A DNA stretch of 21,187 nt from a virus. The notes below the pieces were generated by a model. The model saw only the letters and a list, made by a program, of their open reading frames with translations, ran no database searches and had not been told where the DNA came from. Shown piece by piece: positions 4,225 through 18,991 of this stretch. The translations under genes were made by a program, and so were the position numbers. Position 1 is the first letter of the stretch. The number at the start of each line of letters is the position of its first letter. Location: positions 1 through 21,187 of IMG/VR virus record IMGVR_UViG_3300027777_001013; one strand, 5' to 3'.

Positions 4225-5132
4225 TGACACCAATAATTAAAGGCATTGTTGCCTCTGGAATATCAGGGCATCTAACTCCACCACAGGGCACAGCCTCAGG
4301 AGGCACTGCCTATCCTTCTGGTGGCTACATATATCGTTTGTTTAATGCCACTGGTACTTTAACCGTTTCTACTTACCCTCTTACTGCTGTTAATATCCTT
4401 ATGGTTGCAGGCGGTGGCGGTGGCGGAGATTACGGCGGAGGTGGCGGAGGCGCAGGTGGCGTACTTTTACGCACGAATCAAACTTTGCCTGCTGGCACAT
4501 ACCCTGTAACTGTAGGCGGTGGTGGAACAGGTTATCCTTCTGCTGGTGGCAAGGGTAACGACTCAGTATTTAATAACAACACAACTGCTGGTCAATATGC
4601 AGAAGGTGGTGGTACTGCGTACTACTCAAGCCTTCCTGCTCCAAACCTTAACGGTGGTTCAGGCGCTGGTGGTGGTTCTTACAACACCGTAACTGGCGGA
4701 ACTGCAAGTGGTAACGGTCTAGGCGGTAATGGTTCTAACTCATCTGGTGCTTCTTATTCAGGTGGTGGAGGCGGAGCCTCAGGTCCATCTACAGCCCGTG
4801 GAAGCGGAAATGTGGGCATTGGTGCCGATGGCGTTAATACCTATTCTGCTTATGCAACAGCAACTGGCACAGGCGCAGATAGTGGATACTACGGTGGCGG
4901 TGGAACCGCTGGTCGTACAGGTCCTGGTGGCGTTAACGGTTCAGGTTTGGCAGGTGGTCTTGGTGGTGGCGGTCAAGGTGGTCGCCGTGAATCATCTGGC
5001 GCTGATGGTACTGCAGGCACTGCCTATACAGGCGGTGGCGGTGGAGGCGGAGGTTCAGGCGGTCCTGGTGGAACTTACCACTCAGGTAAAGCGGGAGGCT
5101 CAGGAGTTGTAATTGTGAGGTACACACCATAA
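4224..5132 (+). CDS. Glycine-rich tail fibre / adhesin-like protein, 302 aa
   Basis: It starts at the ATG inside the TAATG junction. After an N-terminal beta segment with 'YIYRLFNATGTLTVS' and 'VNILMVAGGGGGG' (about residues 33-70), most of the protein is glycine-rich. There are many short runs of 3-7 glycines separated by small or aromatic residues, and it closes with 'GKAGGSGVVIVRYTP'. This arrangement (strand, 'vAGGGGGG', Gly tracts, final 'GSGVVIVRY') is the phage glycine-rich fibre domain. Related Gly-rich tips, such as T-even-type gp38 adhesins, form polyglycine-helix sandwiches and determine receptor binding. A receptor-binding tip is therefore likely by analogy. The partner is presumably the two preceding fibre proteins. 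Confidence 0.8.
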   Translation: MTPIIKGIVASGISGHLTPPQGTASGGTAYPSGGYIYRLFNATGTLTVSTYPLTAVNILMVAGGGGGGDYGGGGGGAGGVLLRTNQTLPAGTYPVTVGGGGTGYPSAGGKGNDSVFNNNTTAGQYAEGGGTAYYSSLPAPNLNGGSGAGGGSYNTVTGGTASGNGLGGNGSNSSGASYSGGGGGASGPSTARGSGNVGIGADGVNTYSAYATATGTGADSGYYGGGGTAGRTGPGGVNGSGLAGGLGGGGQGGRRESSGADGTAGTAYTGGGGGGGGSGGPGGTYHSGKAGGSGVVIVRYTP

Positions 5133-5500
5133 TGGCACATTTTGCAGAAATTGTAGACAATGTAGTAGTTAGAGTTCTTGTTGTTCCTGATGAGCAGCAA
5201 CACCGTGGGCAAGATTATCTTGCCAATGATGTCGCACTTGGTGGCACATGGATTCAAACTTCATATAACACTTTTCAAAATACACATACTAATGGTGGCA
5301 CTCCCCTTCGCGGGAATTACGCTGGCATAGGTATGATTTATGACCCAGAAAAAGATTTGTTCTATGGTCCTAAGCCGTATCCGTCTTGGGTATGGAGTGA
5401 TGCCAAGGCTAACTTTGTACCGCCAGTTGACATGCCTACCGATGGCGCAGGCTATGTGTGGGATGAATCACTAATTAACTGGAGAGTCTGGAACGCATAG
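5132..5500 (+). CDS. Phage tail-region protein of the 'WVQTSYNT' type, 122 aa
   Basis: ATG lies in a TAATG junction with the Gly-rich gene. The protein begins 'MAHFAEIVDNVVVRVLVV', has 'GTWIQTSYNTFQNTHTNGGTPLRGNYAGIG' around residues 38-67, then 'PKPYPSWVW' and a Trp-rich ending. This layout is common in small proteins next to fibre or structural genes of cyanophages and other aquatic phages. Its function is not known to me; a fibre accessory or small virion protein is the likely role. It is the last gene before the enzyme cassette, and the candidate promoter of that cassette begins inside its last codons. Confidence 0.7.
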   Translation: MAHFAEIVDNVVVRVLVVPDEQQHRGQDYLANDVALGGTWIQTSYNTFQNTHTNGGTPLRGNYAGIGMIYDPEKDLFYGPKPYPSWVWSDAKANFVPPVDMPTDGAGYVWDESLINWRVWNA

Positions 5501-5533: not shown

Positions 5534-6148
5534 ATGTACCTTATACCACCAGCACCGCTTGAACCTACAAGGGTACATGCTGGGTGCATCTATGAATACG
5601 AAAACATTTGGGAAGATAGCAAGAAGATTATTGCTGAGTTAGAAAAAGAAGTTTCTAAGCAAGATAATCTTTTTAGTTTTATTCCTGCTGACACCATTGA
5701 TGGTGGAGGTCAGGCTAGTAAAATTAGAACTAATGCTCACCTTGGTTTAAGTATGGTTGCTCAACAAAACGAGTGGTTCAGAGAATTAAACAATCGTTTT
5801 TATCAAACGCTAATTCCTACCGTAGAACATTACCGTAGAAATTACATAGATAATATACCTGAGTTGTTCCATGAACCATACAACTTGCTAAAGTATAAGG
5901 CTGGCACAGAGTATAAGGCTCATTATGATGGTGATACTGGTACTCGTAGGGCACTGTCTCCAATTCTGTATCTTAATGATGAATACACTGGCGGAGAATT
6001 AGAGTTTGTACACTTCGGTCTTAAGATTAAACCTAAGGCTGGAACTCTCTATCTTTTCCCAGCAAGTTTTCCTTATGCGCATATTGCACATCCAGTTCAG
6101 ACAGGCACCAAGTACGCCATTGTGACATGGTTACATGACGGCAGATAA
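5534..6148 (+). CDS. 2-oxoglutarate/Fe(II)-dependent oxygenase (prolyl-4-hydroxylase-like), 204 aa
   Basis: ATG 5534 lies five bases after a perfect AGGAGG. The C-terminal half shows the jelly-roll iron site: H130-x-D132 in 'YKAHYDGD', the distal His183 in 'AHIAHPVQTGTKY', and Lys193 where the family has the Arg/Lys that binds 2-oxoglutarate, followed by 'YAIVTW'. 'SPILYLNDEYTGGELEF' is the usual strand pair between them. The family hydroxylates protein side chains (often proline) or small molecules. The N-terminal 100 residues presumably shape substrate access. It overlaps the sulfotransferase gene by 14 bases, so the two are cotranslated. Possible substrates are fibre proteins, host surface molecules or a precursor to be sulfated. 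The chemistry is well supported but the substrate is unknown. Confidence 0.85.
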   Translation: MYLIPPAPLEPTRVHAGCIYEYENIWEDSKKIIAELEKEVSKQDNLFSFIPADTIDGGGQASKIRTNAHLGLSMVAQQNEWFRELNNRFYQTLIPTVEHYRRNYIDNIPELFHEPYNLLKYKAGTEYKAHYDGDTGTRRALSPILYLNDEYTGGELEFVHFGLKIKPKAGTLYLFPASFPYAHIAHPVQTGTKYAIVTWLHDGR

Positions 6149-6947
6149 ACAAAAGATATTTCTAACTGGCTTACCAAGGTCTGGTACAACGCTACTTACA
6201 TCTATTCTTAATCAGAACCCAGATGTATATGCCTCACCTAACTCAGCGTTGTGTCAGATACTTTGGGATACACAGTTAAGAATTTTTAATGATGAGCAGT
6301 TTAGAGCGCATCCTAATTACCAAGGCGCACTAAATGTATTGTCCAGCCTGGCTGACAACTACTATAAAGACCAGCCACAAAAAGTAATTATTGATAAGTG
6401 CAGAGACTGGGGCGTTCCGCCTAACCAGAAGATAACAAAACTTTATATTGACGACAACCCAAAGTACATTATTGTTGTCCGAAATGTACTAGATGTACTG
6501 GCTTCCTTTATTACATTGCTTAATAAAAAAGGTCAGAACACAGGGTACTTTGATAATGAAATAGGCTACACCTATAGGTCATTAGATGATGCACGCTGTG
6601 ATTACCTGATGAAACCTAATGGATTGATTGACCGCTCCCTTTGGTCTATTGCCTCGCTTCTTGACCCTAACAACAATGTTGGTTATTGCCTCATTAACTA
6701 TGATGAGATAGTAGATACGCCAGAGGTGGTCACCGATGCAATCTATGAGTTAATTGGCATTGATAAGTTTAAACATGATTTTAAGAACATTGAAAACAAA
6801 TATCCAGAAGATGACAACATCTATGGATTGACTGGGTTCCATAAGGTGCGCCCAACAATAAGCAAGAAGTCACTTCCTTATACTGAGGTACTGTCTGATT
6901 ATGTAATCAACAAGTACGCTAACTATAATATATGGGAGACTAAATGA
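6135..6947 (+). CDS. PAPS-dependent sulfotransferase-like protein, 270 aa
   Basis: The N-terminus carries the 5'-phosphosulfate loop 'FLTGLPRSGTTLLTSIL' (residues 9-25), typical of sulfotransferases that take sulfate from PAPS. The second donor site appears as 'YIIVVRNVLDVLASF' (R116...S124), equivalent to the family's RDPrDxxxS 3'-phosphate loop. Length and the order of the two sites match the bacterial Sulfotransfer_3-type family. No signal peptide is seen, so it should act in the cytoplasm. The acceptor (polysaccharide, lipid, protein or small molecule) cannot be read from sequence. It overlaps the oxygenase gene by 14 bases and the APS-kinase-like gene by four (ATGA), which suggests one pathway. 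AT content in sampled lines is higher than in the surrounding tail genes. Confidence 0.82.
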   Translation: MTADKQKIFLTGLPRSGTTLLTSILNQNPDVYASPNSALCQILWDTQLRIFNDEQFRAHPNYQGALNVLSSLADNYYKDQPQKVIIDKCRDWGVPPNQKITKLYIDDNPKYIIVVRNVLDVLASFITLLNKKGQNTGYFDNEIGYTYRSLDDARCDYLMKPNGLIDRSLWSIASLLDPNNNVGYCLINYDEIVDTPEVVTDAIYELIGIDKFKHDFKNIENKYPEDDNIYGLTGFHKVRPTISKKSLPYTEVLSDYVINKYANYNIWETK

Positions 6948-7693
6948 TTATCCAGATTATAGGATTACCTGGTGCTGGCAAGACTGCGTTAGCCATTGAA
7001 CTAGCATCCAGAGTAAATGGTATTCATCTTAATGCTGATGAGATTCGTGCTGACTTAAGCAAGGACCTTGGCTTTAGTGAAGAAGATAGAATTGAACAGG
7101 CTCGCCGTATTGGTGCAGTTGCACGCATCCTTGACAACCAAGGACATATTGTTATTGCTGACTTCATCTGCCCTACCGAAGCAACTCGCGTAGCATTTGG
7201 CACATCGCACTCATTAGTGTGGGTAGACCGTATTAAGGAAAGTCGTTTTCCTAATACAGATGCTATTTGGGAACAGCCTAAGGCTGACCTACGCATTGAA
7301 CATGGCTTAACCATTGAAGAAGAAGTACAACTTGTAATCAGTACATTTAAAATGCATGACTGGCGCAAACCAACAACACTTATGCTGGGTAGATACCAGC
7401 CCTGGCATGAGGGGCATCATGCATTACTGGAGAAAGCACATGAGCGAACAGAGCAAGTCCTTATTGCCGTCAGAGACACCCAAGGAACAAGCGAAAAAGA
7501 CCCACTCTCGTATCAGCAAGTTGCTGGACATATTGTTTCCTCCTATGCCAACGCACCTTTTGTAATGAAAGTTCCCAACATTACTAACATAGTTTATGGT
7601 CGTGATGTTGGATATAAGATTGAACAAGTAGACCTTGGTGCAGAAATTCACTCTATCTCTGCTACGCAGAAGCGTAAGGAGATGGGTATATGA
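6944..7693 (+). CDS. APS-kinase-like / HxGH nucleotidyltransferase fusion, 249 aa
   Basis: Residues 1-135 resemble adenylylsulfate kinase (CysC). They have a P-loop GLPGAGKT (7-14), then 'LNADEIRADLSKDLGFSEEDRIEQARRIG' in place of 'DGDNVR..LN.DLGFS.EDR.ENIRRIG', and 'FICP' where CysC has 'FISP'. The APS-contacting Asp32, Arg35 and Arg49 equivalents are kept, while the usual Asn after EDR.E is Gln52. Residues 143-249 are a compact nucleotidyltransferase with 'GRYQPWHEGH' (HxGH at 155-158), 'YGRDVG' near 218-223 and 'ISATQKRKEM' (238-247). That domain is far smaller than ATP sulfurylase and looks like the cytidylyl/NMN-adenylyltransferase group. Next to a sulfotransferase, PAPS supply is the simplest reading. 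A kinase for another nucleotide or sugar remains possible. Confidence 0.78.
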   Translation: MIIQIIGLPGAGKTALAIELASRVNGIHLNADEIRADLSKDLGFSEEDRIEQARRIGAVARILDNQGHIVIADFICPTEATRVAFGTSHSLVWVDRIKESRFPNTDAIWEQPKADLRIEHGLTIEEEVQLVISTFKMHDWRKPTTLMLGRYQPWHEGHHALLEKAHERTEQVLIAVRDTQGTSEKDPLSYQQVAGHIVSSYANAPFVMKVPNITNIVYGRDVGYKIEQVDLGAEIHSISATQKRKEMGI

Positions 7694-7899
7694 AAGTAAC
7701 TAAGGCTCGGTCATTTACCAAGTCACTTAGTTACCGCATCTTTGGAACTTTAAGTTCTTTTGCTGTAGTATTTGTTATCACTGGAAAAGGAACACTGTCA
7801 GCCCTTATTGCTTTTTGGGAGACGGTTGTTAAAGTAGGCATTTACTACTGGCACGAAAGAATCTGGGATAAAATTTCCTGGGGTAGAAAAAACAAATAA
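7690..7899 (+). CDS. DUF2061-type small membrane protein, 69 aa
   Basis: It starts in an ATGA overlap with the fusion gene. The sequence 'KSLSYRIFGTLSSFAVVFVITGKGTLSALIAFWETVVKVGIYYWHERIW' fits the DUF2061 pattern of two hydrophobic helices, a 'K..YR..GT' entry and a terminal 'K..YY.HERiW..i.wG'. Members are short inner-membrane proteins of unknown activity. As I recall, they are often encoded beside CysC/CysD/CysN sulfate-activation genes, which agrees with the neighbours here. A scaffold or transporter-like aid to sulfate use is conceivable but unproven. It is the last gene before a strong terminator and so closes the cassette. Confidence 0.8.
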   Translation: MKVTKARSFTKSLSYRIFGTLSSFAVVFVITGKGTLSALIAFWETVVKVGIYYWHERIWDKISWGRKNK

Positions 7900-7908
7900 C
7901 AACTAAAG

Positions 7909-7931
7909 AACCCGCTTCGGCGGGTTTTTTT
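7909..7931 (+). terminator. Rho-independent terminator after the enzyme cassette
   Basis: AACCCGC (7909-7915), loop TTCG, GCGGGTT (7920-7926), then a continuing T run to 7931. The stem is a perfect 7 bp with a stable tetraloop and a U-tract. The next gene starts at 7946, so there is no room for a full promoter between them. The tail and lysis genes downstream must depend on read-through, antitermination or a promoter lying inside the cassette. Confidence 0.9.
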
Positions 7932-15240: not shown

Positions 15241-15583
15241 CAAGCGTAGGGGTGCAGCCTTTGAGATTGACTTGGCTGACCATCTTGTTGAAGGAGAATA
15301 CGAAGCGCAACGCTTGCCTCGTGCTGGTCGCAACGACATTGGTGATGTCTTTCTTAAGACAGTAAATGATTCGTATGTCATTGAAGCCAAGGCACCACGG
15401 CGTGATGGCAAGATAGATTTATCTGGCTGGATTCGTGAGGCTATGGTTGAGGCAGAGAACTATCGCATCTCCAAGAAATTAAAGGTAGCACCTACGCCAT
15501 TGGTTATTATCAAGGCATCTAACAAGGGGATTGAGGAGTCGTATGTAGTGCAAAGACTTAGTGATGCTCTTGCAAAACTCTAA
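15218..15583 (+). CDS. Holliday-junction-resolvase-like PD-(D/E)XK nuclease, 121 aa
   Basis: ATG 15218 is preceded by AAGGAG (about eight bases) and lies inside the end of the glycosyltransferase gene. The fold signature is complete: 'KRRGAAFEIDLADHL' with E16, 'RAGRNDIGDVF' with D43, 'YVIEAKA' with E56-x-K58, then a basic helix. This order matches archaeal Hjc and phage resolvases of the VRR-NUC/HJR group, which cut branched DNA before packaging. The enzyme is small, as expected for a dimer. The motif TTAAGACAG lies inside the gene at 15354. Confidence 0.8.
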   Translation: MTTQQKSNKRRGAAFEIDLADHLVEGEYEAQRLPRAGRNDIGDVFLKTVNDSYVIEAKAPRRDGKIDLSGWIREAMVEAENYRISKKLKVAPTPLVIIKASNKGIEESYVVQRLSDALAKL

Positions 15584-15953
15584 GCATGACCTCGCTAAAG
15601 TATTAGAACACTATGGCTTTGATATTCCACAGGGTAGGCGTGGCTGGATAACAGTACGCTGTGCCTTCCACGGCGACAGAGTAAAATCTGCTCGTCTTAA
15701 TACAGAAAACGGTGGGTTCCGTTGCTTCGGCTGTGACATGGCGGGAGATGTGTACTCAATTATTATGAAGAAAGAAGGAGTTACTTTCAATGAGGCTAAG
15801 CAAATCGCAGAGAGAATTACTGGAGAGAGCAACGGAGAACTACGCTCAAAACCTAGAGGAGATTCTTCCGTATCTGGAAACGAGAGGTATCACTCAACCG
15901 ACCGCAACTATGTTTCGCCTCGGCTTCGTAAAAACTCCAGAGGTGGGGCATGA
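15564..15953 (+). CDS. Primase zinc-finger subunit (DnaG N-terminal type), 129 aa
   Basis: Residues 1-87 form the CHC2 zinc domain of DnaG-type primases: C33-x2-H36 in 'VRCAFHGD' and C54-x2-C57 in 'GGFRCFGCDMAGDVYSII', then the 'GVTFNEAKQIAERI' helix. The catalytic TOPRIM part is in the next gene, in a different frame (+1). From about residue 88 the product is Ser/Arg/Asn-rich and looks like a by-product of the overlap. GTG 15561 is an alternative start; neither has a clear ribosome site. It overlaps the resolvase gene by 20 bases. Either the primase works as two polypeptides, or a frameshift (real or a sequence error) joins them. Confidence 0.75.
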   Translation: MLLQNSKHDLAKVLEHYGFDIPQGRRGWITVRCAFHGDRVKSARLNTENGGFRCFGCDMAGDVYSIIMKKEGVTFNEAKQIAERITGESNGELRSKPRGDSSVSGNERYHSTDRNYVSPRLRKNSRGGA

Positions 15954-16410
15954 GCCATACATTGGTAAGTTATCTATCCCATACCTGACACCATCAGGCA
16001 CCATTGACATACGCTTTCGTGCCTTAAGTCCTGATGCTACGGGTCCGAAGTATATGTCTCGACCTGGGGCTACTACTCACATCTTTAATATCAACGCATT
16101 GGGTAATGCTGATGACACGCTAGTGGTATGTGAAGGTGAATTAGATACAGTCATTGCTACACAAGCAGGCTTCACCGCAGTGGGATTGCCAGGGGCTAAC
16201 AACTGGAAACCTTTTTACTCTCGCGTGCTTGCTGATTGGGGCAAGGTAATCTTACTTTGTGATGGTGACAACGCAGGGCGTGAGATGGCTAAGAATCTAA
16301 GTCGTGAGTTGGATAATGTGTTCCCTGTTTTTATGCCTGAGGGACAAGATGTTAATGATGTGTACCTTGCCGAAGGTGCAGACGGGTTGCGTAAGAGGGC
16401 TGGTGTCTAG
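15790..16410 (+). CDS. Primase catalytic (TOPRIM) subunit, 206 aa
   Basis: ATG 15790 has its own AAGGAG at 15775-15780, nine bases upstream, although it lies 164 bases inside the zinc-finger gene. Residues 8-35 ('RELLERATENYAQNL', 'YLETRGIT') and 'MFRLGFV' correspond to the start of the DnaG RNA-polymerase domain. 'LVVCEGELDTVIA' (E115) and 'ILLCDGDNAGREMA' (D158, D160) are the TOPRIM metal ligands, and 'EGQDVND' closes the domain. The helicase-binding C-terminus of cellular DnaG is absent, as usual in phages. It should prime replication with the zinc-finger protein and the DnaB-like ATPase. Confidence 0.83.
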   Translation: MRLSKSQRELLERATENYAQNLEEILPYLETRGITQPTATMFRLGFVKTPEVGHEPYIGKLSIPYLTPSGTIDIRFRALSPDATGPKYMSRPGATTHIFNINALGNADDTLVVCEGELDTVIATQAGFTAVGLPGANNWKPFYSRVLADWGKVILLCDGDNAGREMAKNLSRELDNVFPVFMPEGQDVNDVYLAEGADGLRKRAGV

Positions 16411-18206: not shown

Positions 18207-18551
18207 TCATGTGTTGTGCTGTGGGTCAGATACCATGATGTTGTTGCGCTTGCGTATGGCGAACCGCTCGAAGGGTGTCGTTGCTCCCCATACTCCGTAC
18301 CTTTCCATCGCTACGCCCCACTCTAGGCAGGCTTCCATCACTGGGCAGTCCACACAGATACGCTTGAGTAACTCGGCTTCGCCTTCCTCAAACTTATCCT
18401 GTGCTGGGTAGAAGAACTCGGTGTCTATGCCTTGGCATGATGCACCCTTCCATTTGTTTGAGTCATACCTTAGGCGATAAGAGATAACCTGATTGCCTTT
18501 GTAACGAGATGTGCTCTGACTTAATACATGAAAGAACTTTATCTTAAACAT
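18207..18551 (-). CDS. WhiB-family Fe-S transcription regulator, 114 aa
   Basis: I use ATG 18551, in a TAATG junction with the upstream transglycosylase gene; a GTG at 18560 is the alternative. The four cluster cysteines are C39, C66, C69 and C75 ('ASCQGIDTEFF' and 'RICVDCPVMEACLEW'), followed by the WhiB turn 'RYGVWGATT' and a basic C-terminal tail ('FAIRKRNN'). WhiB proteins are confined to actinobacteria and their phages, bind a [4Fe-4S] cluster and act with the main sigma factor. The WhiB of mycobacteriophage TM4 represses host whiB2 and causes superinfection exclusion. It is the last gene of the leftward operon. Confidence 0.9.
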   Translation of the reverse strand: MFKIKFFHVLSQSTSRYKGNQVISYRLRYDSNKWKGASCQGIDTEFFYPAQDKFEEGEAELLKRICVDCPVMEACLEWGVAMERYGVWGATTPFERFAIRKRNNIMVSDPQHNT

Positions 18552-18991
18552 TAGTACCACCCCATCGCAAGGTGATGAGCATAAGCCTTGCAGATTGCGC
18601 CTTTGCCATAGTGTCTATCTATGTACTTGAGTCCAGCATCTACCTGCTTATATCCGTCTTGCGTGGGGAGGGTGTTGATGTTGCGCCATGTGCTTGGCTT
18701 TAGTTGTGCGATACCCATGGCTCCGCCATTTTTGTTGAGCGCATGCGGTCGCCAGTTACTCTCGCGTATCCACAATTCATAAAGACATGGATACTGTTCC
18801 AGTTCGTTGCGTGCTATCAACCTGTCCAATGCATAGCGTTGATAATCATTCTGATAGTAAGCAACTATCTTGCCATAAGGCGGTGTCTTAAATGGTGATG
18901 CTGGCTTAAGACATAGAATAAGTCCTAAGATAATTGCTGTTGCTATCCACAGTCGGGCGTGTGGGTGAATCTGTCTTAAGTCATTACGCAT
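18551..18991 (-). CDS. Membrane-anchored lytic transglycosylase (SLT type), 146 aa
   Basis: ATG 18991 overlaps the previous gene by eight bases; an in-frame ATG at 19021 would add ten residues. Residues 13-29 ('RLWIATAIILGLILCLK') are a signal or anchor helix. Then come 'CLYELWIRESNWRPHALNKNGGAMGIAQLKPSTW' (69-102) with the catalytic Glu77, the 'GAMGIAQ' loop, and 'DAGLKYIDRHYG' near the end. This is the lysozyme-like SLT fold, which cuts glycan strands of peptidoglycan. The gene is far from the late lysis module and lies among early-type genes, so a role in cell-wall remodelling or entry is as likely as lysis. The motif TTAAGACAG follows its start. Confidence 0.83.
   Translation of the reverse strand: MRNDLRQIHPHARLWIATAIILGLILCLKPASPFKTPPYGKIVAYYQNDYQRYALDRLIARNELEQYPCLYELWIRESNWRPHALNKNGGAMGIAQLKPSTWRNINTLPTQDGYKQVDAGLKYIDRHYGKGAICKAYAHHLAMGWY

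Follow-up and report, generated by a model that had tools for sequence, protein, structure and literature searches.

A phage tail-module cassette joining a sulfotransferase to a candidate PAPS synthase with a NadM-like nucleotidylyltransferase domain

Phage copies of cysC, cysD and cysH are on record from Lake Baikal viromes (PMC8066274), and some OM43 phages that possess a sulfotransferase, the function of which was stated to be unclear, also carry a 2-oxoglutarate (2OG) oxygenase (PMC10580990). In bacteria, the aprMBA locus of SAR11 has been proposed to act in sulfite oxidation (PMC2211403, PMC12636525). AprAB belongs to the SAR11 core and experiences strong purifying selection, in contrast to the sulfate pathways of the group, which look incomplete (PMC12636525), and most SAR11 are without ATP sulfurylase, a gap noted in connection with this locus (PMC10356861). 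Here we describe a four-gene cassette from a freshwater-type phage, IMG/VR virus record IMGVR_UViG_3300027777_001013; the window analysed is the entire record of 21,187 bases. The cassette (positions 5534-7899) encodes a 2OG-Fe(II) oxygenase, a sulfotransferase of the type that uses 3'-phosphoadenosine 5'-phosphosulfate (PAPS), a fusion of a kinase with a nucleotidylyltransferase (NTase), and a DUF2061 protein. We propose that it is probably a phage sulfation module, in which the NTase/kinase protein serves as a PAPS synthase feeding the sulfotransferase. The putative sulfate-activating kinase-NTase enzyme constitutes an undescribed family: among open-licence papers, searches on DUF2061 in relation to sulfate, on the synthesis of PAPS by phages and on an atypical ATP sulfurylase in SAR11 turned up no account of it.

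All four genes lie on the + strand and start with ATG (5534-6148, 6135-6947, 6944-7693 and 7690-7899), with successive overlaps of 14, 4 and 4 bases, and in a Pfam scan all four proteins exceed the curated cut-offs. The preliminary description of this DNA, which had recognised four overlapping genes of four families inside a tail module, is thereby confirmed; tail-fibre-type genes flank the cassette on both sides, matching phrog_38058 and phrog_2295 upstream and phrog_11667 downstream. The genes are not a chance occurrence, since close relatives retain them at 59-86% protein identity. Cassette families, operon structure, conserved residues and genomic associations were read directly from the sequences.

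The third gene (6944-7693, + strand; PF01583, 1.1e-18; PF01467, 1.1e-5) encodes a bifunctional kinase-NTase of 249 amino acids (aa), the proposed PAPS synthase. Its aa 1 to about 138 resemble kinases of adenosine 5'-phosphosulfate (APS), and aa from about 142 to 249 form a NadM-like nucleotidylyltransferase. The PF01583 APS_kinase match on aa 2-84 scores 68.2 bits against a cut-off of 21.1 and covers profile positions 4-91 of 152. An AlphaFold2 model built from an alignment with 36 relatives shows two confident domains (predicted local distance difference test score 91.7), and in a fold search of the PDB with the fusion, APS kinases take all of the top 47 ranks (best E 1.1e-9). Kinase residues D32, R35, F44, R49 and P77, invariant among 20 relatives, correspond to D63, R66, F75, R80 and P108 of the Penicillium chrysogenum enzyme, which we take to be residues around APS (the alignment positions were checked).

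The C-terminal half of the protein is of a different kind. It carries the motifs HxGH and ISATxxR and matches PF01467 CTP_transf_like (1.1e-5, aa 147-185); this is its only Pfam match, and the fusion gave no match to Sat (PF01747), CysD (PF01507) or CysN. Modelled in isolation, the NTase matches folds of the NadM, PPAT and PanC types, weakly (best E 0.013). It falls below the cut-offs for nicotinamide mononucleotide (NMN) adenylyltransferases (NMNATs), scoring 22.8 against 181.2 bits for TIGR01527 and 27.6 against 127 for NF002243. The stretches that match are separated by 47 residues in the NMNAT MJ0541 and by about 24 in the NTase profile, a shortening of some 20 residues, and the extra middle residues of MJ0541 are presumably part of what binds NMN. 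The NTase stands outside the known ATP sulfurylase families, as judged from its sequence, and is claimed here to work like an ATP sulfurylase, an assignment that we consider likely.

The cellular relatives of the two domains place them among enzymes of sulfate metabolism. In Rhizobium, a single protein of 555 aa contains Sulfotransfer_2, APS_kinase and CTP_transf_like domains; fusion of a sulfotransferase to the module is recorded for locus L047. In uncultured Alphaproteobacteria and in Pelagibacteraceae, two overlapping genes encode the kinase and the NTase; in marine Alphaproteobacteria they adjoin aprMBA, for APS reductase, or cysQ, for the phosphatase of 3'-phosphoadenosine 5'-phosphate (PAP). 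Among 80 fetched cellular loci, aprA lies within 1.5 kb in 33 and cysQ is in the locus in 32; 26 of these 32 have cysQ just upstream and no aprA, and where the kinase and NTase adjoin cysQ they usually begin 12 bases downstream of it. The neighbouring AprA, AprB and CysQ pass NCBIfam cut-offs. In SAR11-type loci (L049-L066 and similar, e.g. L060:8001-8883), the kinase and NTase genes adjoin aprMBA, and no ATP sulfurylase is recognisable in these genomes. Two small alphaproteobacterial genomes hold a sulfate assimilation operon of siroheme synthase, cysI, cysH, DUF2061, kinase and NTase (L310:3323-7657 and L311:3492-7853, both on the minus strand), in which the siroheme synthase was recognised by eye and the other genes by Pfam. 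This operon has ordinary genes for all steps of sulfate assimilation except ATP sulfurylase, and the NTase is its sole candidate for that step. In another alphaproteobacterium (L316:5352-6170, minus strand), a kinase-NTase fusion overlaps an AMP-binding, acyl-CoA-synthetase-like gene.

The link to AprA was examined in 118 Pelagibacterales genomes that had not been chosen for the NTase. The NTase was found in 85 and AprA in 86, with both in 79, AprA only in 7, NTase only in 6 and neither in 26 (odds ratio 49, Fisher 2.6e-14, uncorrected for ancestry). The PF01747 ATP sulfurylase was found in 6 of the 118 and in 5 of the 86 genomes with AprA. Across 399 Pseudomonadota genomes the NTase occurred in 2, one of which was the seed. 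These patterns make the NTase a candidate for the missing SAR11 ATP sulfurylase in sulfite oxidation. Beside AprBA, it would consume APS rather than make it. On balance we favour the broader proposal that the NTase is a third, so far unrecognised family of ATP sulfurylase, of about 108-130 aa and derived from NadM, which would supply the missing sulfate adenylyltransferase of SAR11, together with AprBA in sulfite oxidation or with CysH in assimilation, and which in phages is fused to an APS kinase as a minimal PAPS synthase for sulfating tail fibres or the host surface.

The same neighbourhoods bear on two other identities for the fusion. NadR, too, combines an NMNAT with a P-loop kinase, and in a NadR-like salvage of NAD the kinase would phosphorylate nicotinamide riboside and the NTase would act as NMN adenylyltransferase, with NAD being rebuilt during infection. 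The NTase profile does match NadM/NMNAT best, and the homologue in Casjensviridae phages overlaps a gene for a NADAR domain. However, the fold and contact residues of the kinase are of the APS kinase type, the NTase is shortened relative to MJ0541, its cellular neighbours are aprBA, cysQ and cysH, and in the same Casjensviridae phages a Sulfotransfer_4-like gene adjoins the NADAR gene. We judge NAD salvage to be very improbable, and rejected it as the leading explanation because the genes occur with apr, cysQ and cysH and because the Casjensviridae clusters include a sulfotransferase gene. A second possibility is that the fusion makes a different 3'-phosphonucleotide donor, for example of phosphoramidate as in Campylobacter, and that the "sulfotransferase" moves this group. 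The CysC-like Cj1415 of Campylobacter is on record as a cytidine diphosphoramidate kinase, and the NTase falls within the wider cytidylyltransferase superfamily. Yet the neighbouring APS reductase, PAPS reductase and PAP phosphatase all act on adenosine sulfate compounds, and genes for phosphoramidate were not recognised near the window cassette in the list of open reading frames or by Pfam; we therefore give this donor very little credence.

The second gene of the cassette (6135-6947, + strand) encodes a PAPS-type sulfotransferase (PF13469 Sulfotransfer_3, 2.5e-12; PF00685, 2.9e-10; phrog_27463, 2e-75). It scores 48 bits against the PF13469 cut-off of 27 and is likewise above the cut-off for PF00685. 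The family invariants G12, R15, G17 and T19 form the 5' phosphosulfate loop, and R116 and S124, spaced by 8, form the 3' phosphate motif; the window protein was assigned to the family on the profile together with this loop and the R...S motif. Its nearest solved structures are the protein-tyrosine sulfotransferases TPST1/2, whose GEET motif after the P-loop reads SPxS here. Tyrosine sulfation, which these structures bring to mind, is conceivable even though that motif is absent.

Phage loci with the kinase-NTase were collected in two scans (n = 111, including some near-duplicates). DUF2061 is present in 92 of them; it lies directly downstream of the kinase-NTase in 82 of 107 loci and two genes down in 12. 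Sulfotransferase-like genes fill 45 of 213 slots at positions -1 and -2 of the kinase-NTase and none at -3 to -9, a pattern that holds when the kinase is clustered at 90% identity (20/97 against 0/254). Overall, a sulfotransferase is near the kinase-NTase in 46 of the 111 loci, or in 42 when the "STgg" sulfotransferase-like group (L008, L024, L161) is left out, which is defined by motifs only and gave no sulfotransferase Pfam match in the two members scanned. Conversely, in a search that began from the sulfotransferase, the kinase was found inside the fetched flanks of 13 of 79 loci, mostly touching or overlapping. The sulfotransferases that occupy this slot, with overlapping reading frames, are of several families: PF13469 as in the window, a small type, PF03567 in L134-type loci and PF17784 in Casjensviridae. 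The type of oxygenase also differs among the loci, most of which have none, and L134-type loci pair the PF03567 sulfotransferase with an Asp/Arg beta-hydroxylase. The constant core of the phage module is the kinase-NTase plus DUF2061, and the variety of sulfotransferases and oxygenases around it is as expected of a donor-making core that serves different transferases.

These arrangements also speak to whether the genes serve the phage's own transferase at all. As auxiliary metabolic genes they could instead boost host sulfur assimilation, providing PAPS for cysteine, with the sulfotransferase incidental. The cysC, cysD and cysH genes of the Lake Baikal phages give a precedent, and within three genes, many loci show no sulfotransferase. 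Against this, sulfotransferases of multiple families occupy the same slot with overlapping frames, one is fused to the module in L047, and cysH, cysI and cysK were not recognised in the window by open reading frame list or Pfam; we regard the assimilation role as improbable. It is scarcely credible that unrelated accessory genes simply gathered by chance in a tail-gene hot spot. Accessory genes close to tail fibres do include oxygenases and sulfotransferases, and the precise combination of four is rarely seen, but the adjacency of kinase-NTase and DUF2061, the sharp -1/-2 position at which sulfotransferases stand and the exchange of one sulfotransferase family for another are hard to reconcile with such a gathering, as is the finding of DUF2061 in just 1 of 50,697 phage records in a protein search; the kinase-NTase is not annotated beside that copy.

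The DUF2061 protein itself (7690-7899, + strand) is a small membrane protein, assigned by PF09834 (1.5e-15; 57.8 bits against a cut-off of 23.1) and by hydropathy, which is high from about aa 12 to 52 and leads us to expect two short helices. Alphaproteobacteria contain fusions of DUF2061 to CysN-CysC (L304:1-1704) and to CysN (L303:1465-2610, minus strand). The family is broad: in Alphaproteobacteria, the majority of its members have no sulfate genes next to them. In the present setting, the most plausible role for DUF2061 is that of a membrane protein assisting sulfate activation, which may hold the enzyme at the membrane or aid sulfate supply, with channelling or regulation as further possible roles.

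From these observations we infer the catalytic activities of the cassette, its acceptor and its benefit to the phage. The NTase domain would adenylylate sulfate (ATP + sulfate -> APS + pyrophosphate) as a non-orthologous ATP sulfurylase, and the kinase domain would phosphorylate the 3' position of APS to yield PAPS. That the kinase-NTase makes PAPS is, on the genomic evidence, very likely, and so, with comparable assurance, is the use of this PAPS by a sulfotransferase, which in the window (6135-6947) would transfer the sulfo group to an acceptor. In some cells CysH would draw on this PAPS, whereas in phages and Rhizobium sulfotransferases would do so; CysQ would clear the PAP by-product. The preliminary description had supposed that the phage supplies its own sulfate donor, and this stands as the best reading because the fusion is tied physically and evolutionarily to sulfotransferases and, in cells, to enzymes of APS, PAPS and PAP. 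It had also called the fusion APS-kinase-like; the kinase part holds, and the partner left unnamed there now appears as a nucleotidylyltransferase and candidate sulfate adenylyltransferase, and therefore the phage would carry the whole path from sulfate to PAPS. The survey of co-occurrence that it suggested gave a divided answer: the exact four-gene set was seen solely in the window and L002, the latter with its sulfotransferase split over two frames, whereas the core of kinase-NTase and DUF2061 is recurrent.

The first gene of the cassette (5534-6148, + strand), preceded by a good ribosome-binding site, AGGAGG, encodes a prolyl-4-hydroxylase-like 2OG-Fe(II) oxygenase (PF13640 2OG-FeII_Oxy_3, 9.6e-16, 59 bits against a cut-off of 27; phrog_61, 6.7e-31) in which the HxD...H...K pattern is present. 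It may hydroxylate the acceptor beforehand, for example by placing a hydroxyl on a fibre protein, or may act on another target. Because L134-type loci have a hydroxylase of another family in its place, hydroxylation may belong to the same task in some phages. The main hint to the acceptor, which points to something virion-related, comes from small sulfotransferases fused to the N-terminal part of a tail-fibre-adjacent protein of the type encoded at 5132-5500 in the window (+ strand; phrog_7759, 1.3e-30). These fusions (L130:1788-2630, L190:4432-5274, L197:5144-6001 and L199:1012-1836) are encoded immediately or a short distance upstream of the genes for kinase-NTase and DUF2061. The likeliest acceptors are a virion fibre protein, as a tentative first choice, and, almost as probable, a host surface glycan; sulfation may, as the preliminary description suggested, alter adsorption or hinder superinfection.

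Several points weigh against this interpretation. In the kinase, the equivalents of P. chrysogenum D61 and N83 are N30 and Q52, and the domain misses the NCBIfam apsK equivalog cut-off (TIGR00455, 64.7 against 138.7 bits), for which reason it is best described as an APS-kinase-type enzyme and not as a standard, orthologous CysC. The NTase sequence is closest to archaeal-type NMN adenylyltransferases, not to ATP sulfurylases, and sulfate-binding residues could not be shown in it. The association of AprA with the NTase stands uncorrected for shared ancestry, many of the genomes come from single cells and are incomplete, and Sat and the NTase occur together in five. In three genomes (L106-L108), the kinase is beside apr/aprA and the NTase is on a different contig; the two genes can thus be unlinked. 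No acceptor gene can be named. Finally, in 65 of the 111 phage loci no sulfotransferase was recognised up to three genes away; some phages may therefore rely on a sulfotransferase of the host or on one encoded far from the cassette, or may put PAPS to another use.

Elsewhere in the window, a terminator-like hairpin (7909-7926, + strand), AACCCGC-TTCG-GCGGGTT followed by TTTTTATT, begins 10 bases past the DUF2061 stop. It has a 7-bp GC-rich stem, a TTCG loop and then a T run on the + strand, and would end the transcription unit; a terminator scanner listed this stem solely on the - strand. A gene for a WhiB-type regulator (18207-18560, - strand; PF02467) suggests an actinobacterial host. Two + strand frames with a 164-base overlap, at 15561-15953 and 15790-16410, encode the zinc-finger and Toprim halves of a primase, reflecting either a split primase or a frameshift.

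SAR11 are among the commonest bacteria of the ocean. If the proposed activities are correct, the NTase is a candidate for the ATP sulfurylase that most SAR11 genomes are reported to lack (PMC12636525, PMC10356861), and a single small gene would make it possible to test what becomes of sulfite in a very large marine population. Phages would carry a complete path from sulfate through PAPS to product, which would explain phage sulfotransferases of unclear function (PMC10580990) and would suggest that sulfation of the virion or host surface is a common phage strategy. DUF2061 would also be placed in sulfate activation.

Compared with described systems, the cassette has partial counterparts. At the SAR11 aprMBA locus (PMC2211403, PMC12636525), homologues of the kinase and NTase adjoin as separate genes. 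The sulfotransferases of cyanophages and other marine phages (S-SKS1, S-SRM01; OM43 phages, PMC10580990) are homologous to that of the window at 29-41% identity, but these isolate records, unlike the window, have no match to the kinase-NTase. In Casjensviridae, the "kinase" phrog_10255 (Clavibacter phage 33, Stenotrophomonas phage Bhz60, Xanthomonas phage AhaSv) is a full-length homologue of the kinase-NTase at 36-39% identity. There, a Sulfotransfer_4-like gene, a NADAR-type gene and the kinase-NTase stand in a row (L040:4966-6729 in Stenotrophomonas phage Bhz60; L039 and L046 alike) that is annotated mostly as hypothetical or "kinase"; in contrast to the window, the NADAR gene separates the sulfotransferase from the kinase-NTase, DUF2061 is absent and the genes are near lysis genes. 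NMN adenylyltransferases of the NadM/NadR type belong to the same superfamily as the NTase and have the motifs GRxQPxHxGH and ISxTxxR in common with it; the NTase differs in its shorter middle and in its partners, which are sulfate enzymes and not NAD genes, except for NADAR in Casjensviridae. Two-domain PAPS synthases, namely PAPSS1/2 of animals and the Sat-CysC fusions and CysN/CysC of bacteria, resemble the fusion in uniting an APS kinase domain with a sulfate-adenylylating partner to provide PAPS for sulfotransferases. The window protein is set apart from them by its length of 249 aa, by the order kinase-NTase, and by a partner that is an NTase of about 108 aa resembling NadM in place of a PF01747 Sat or CysDN.

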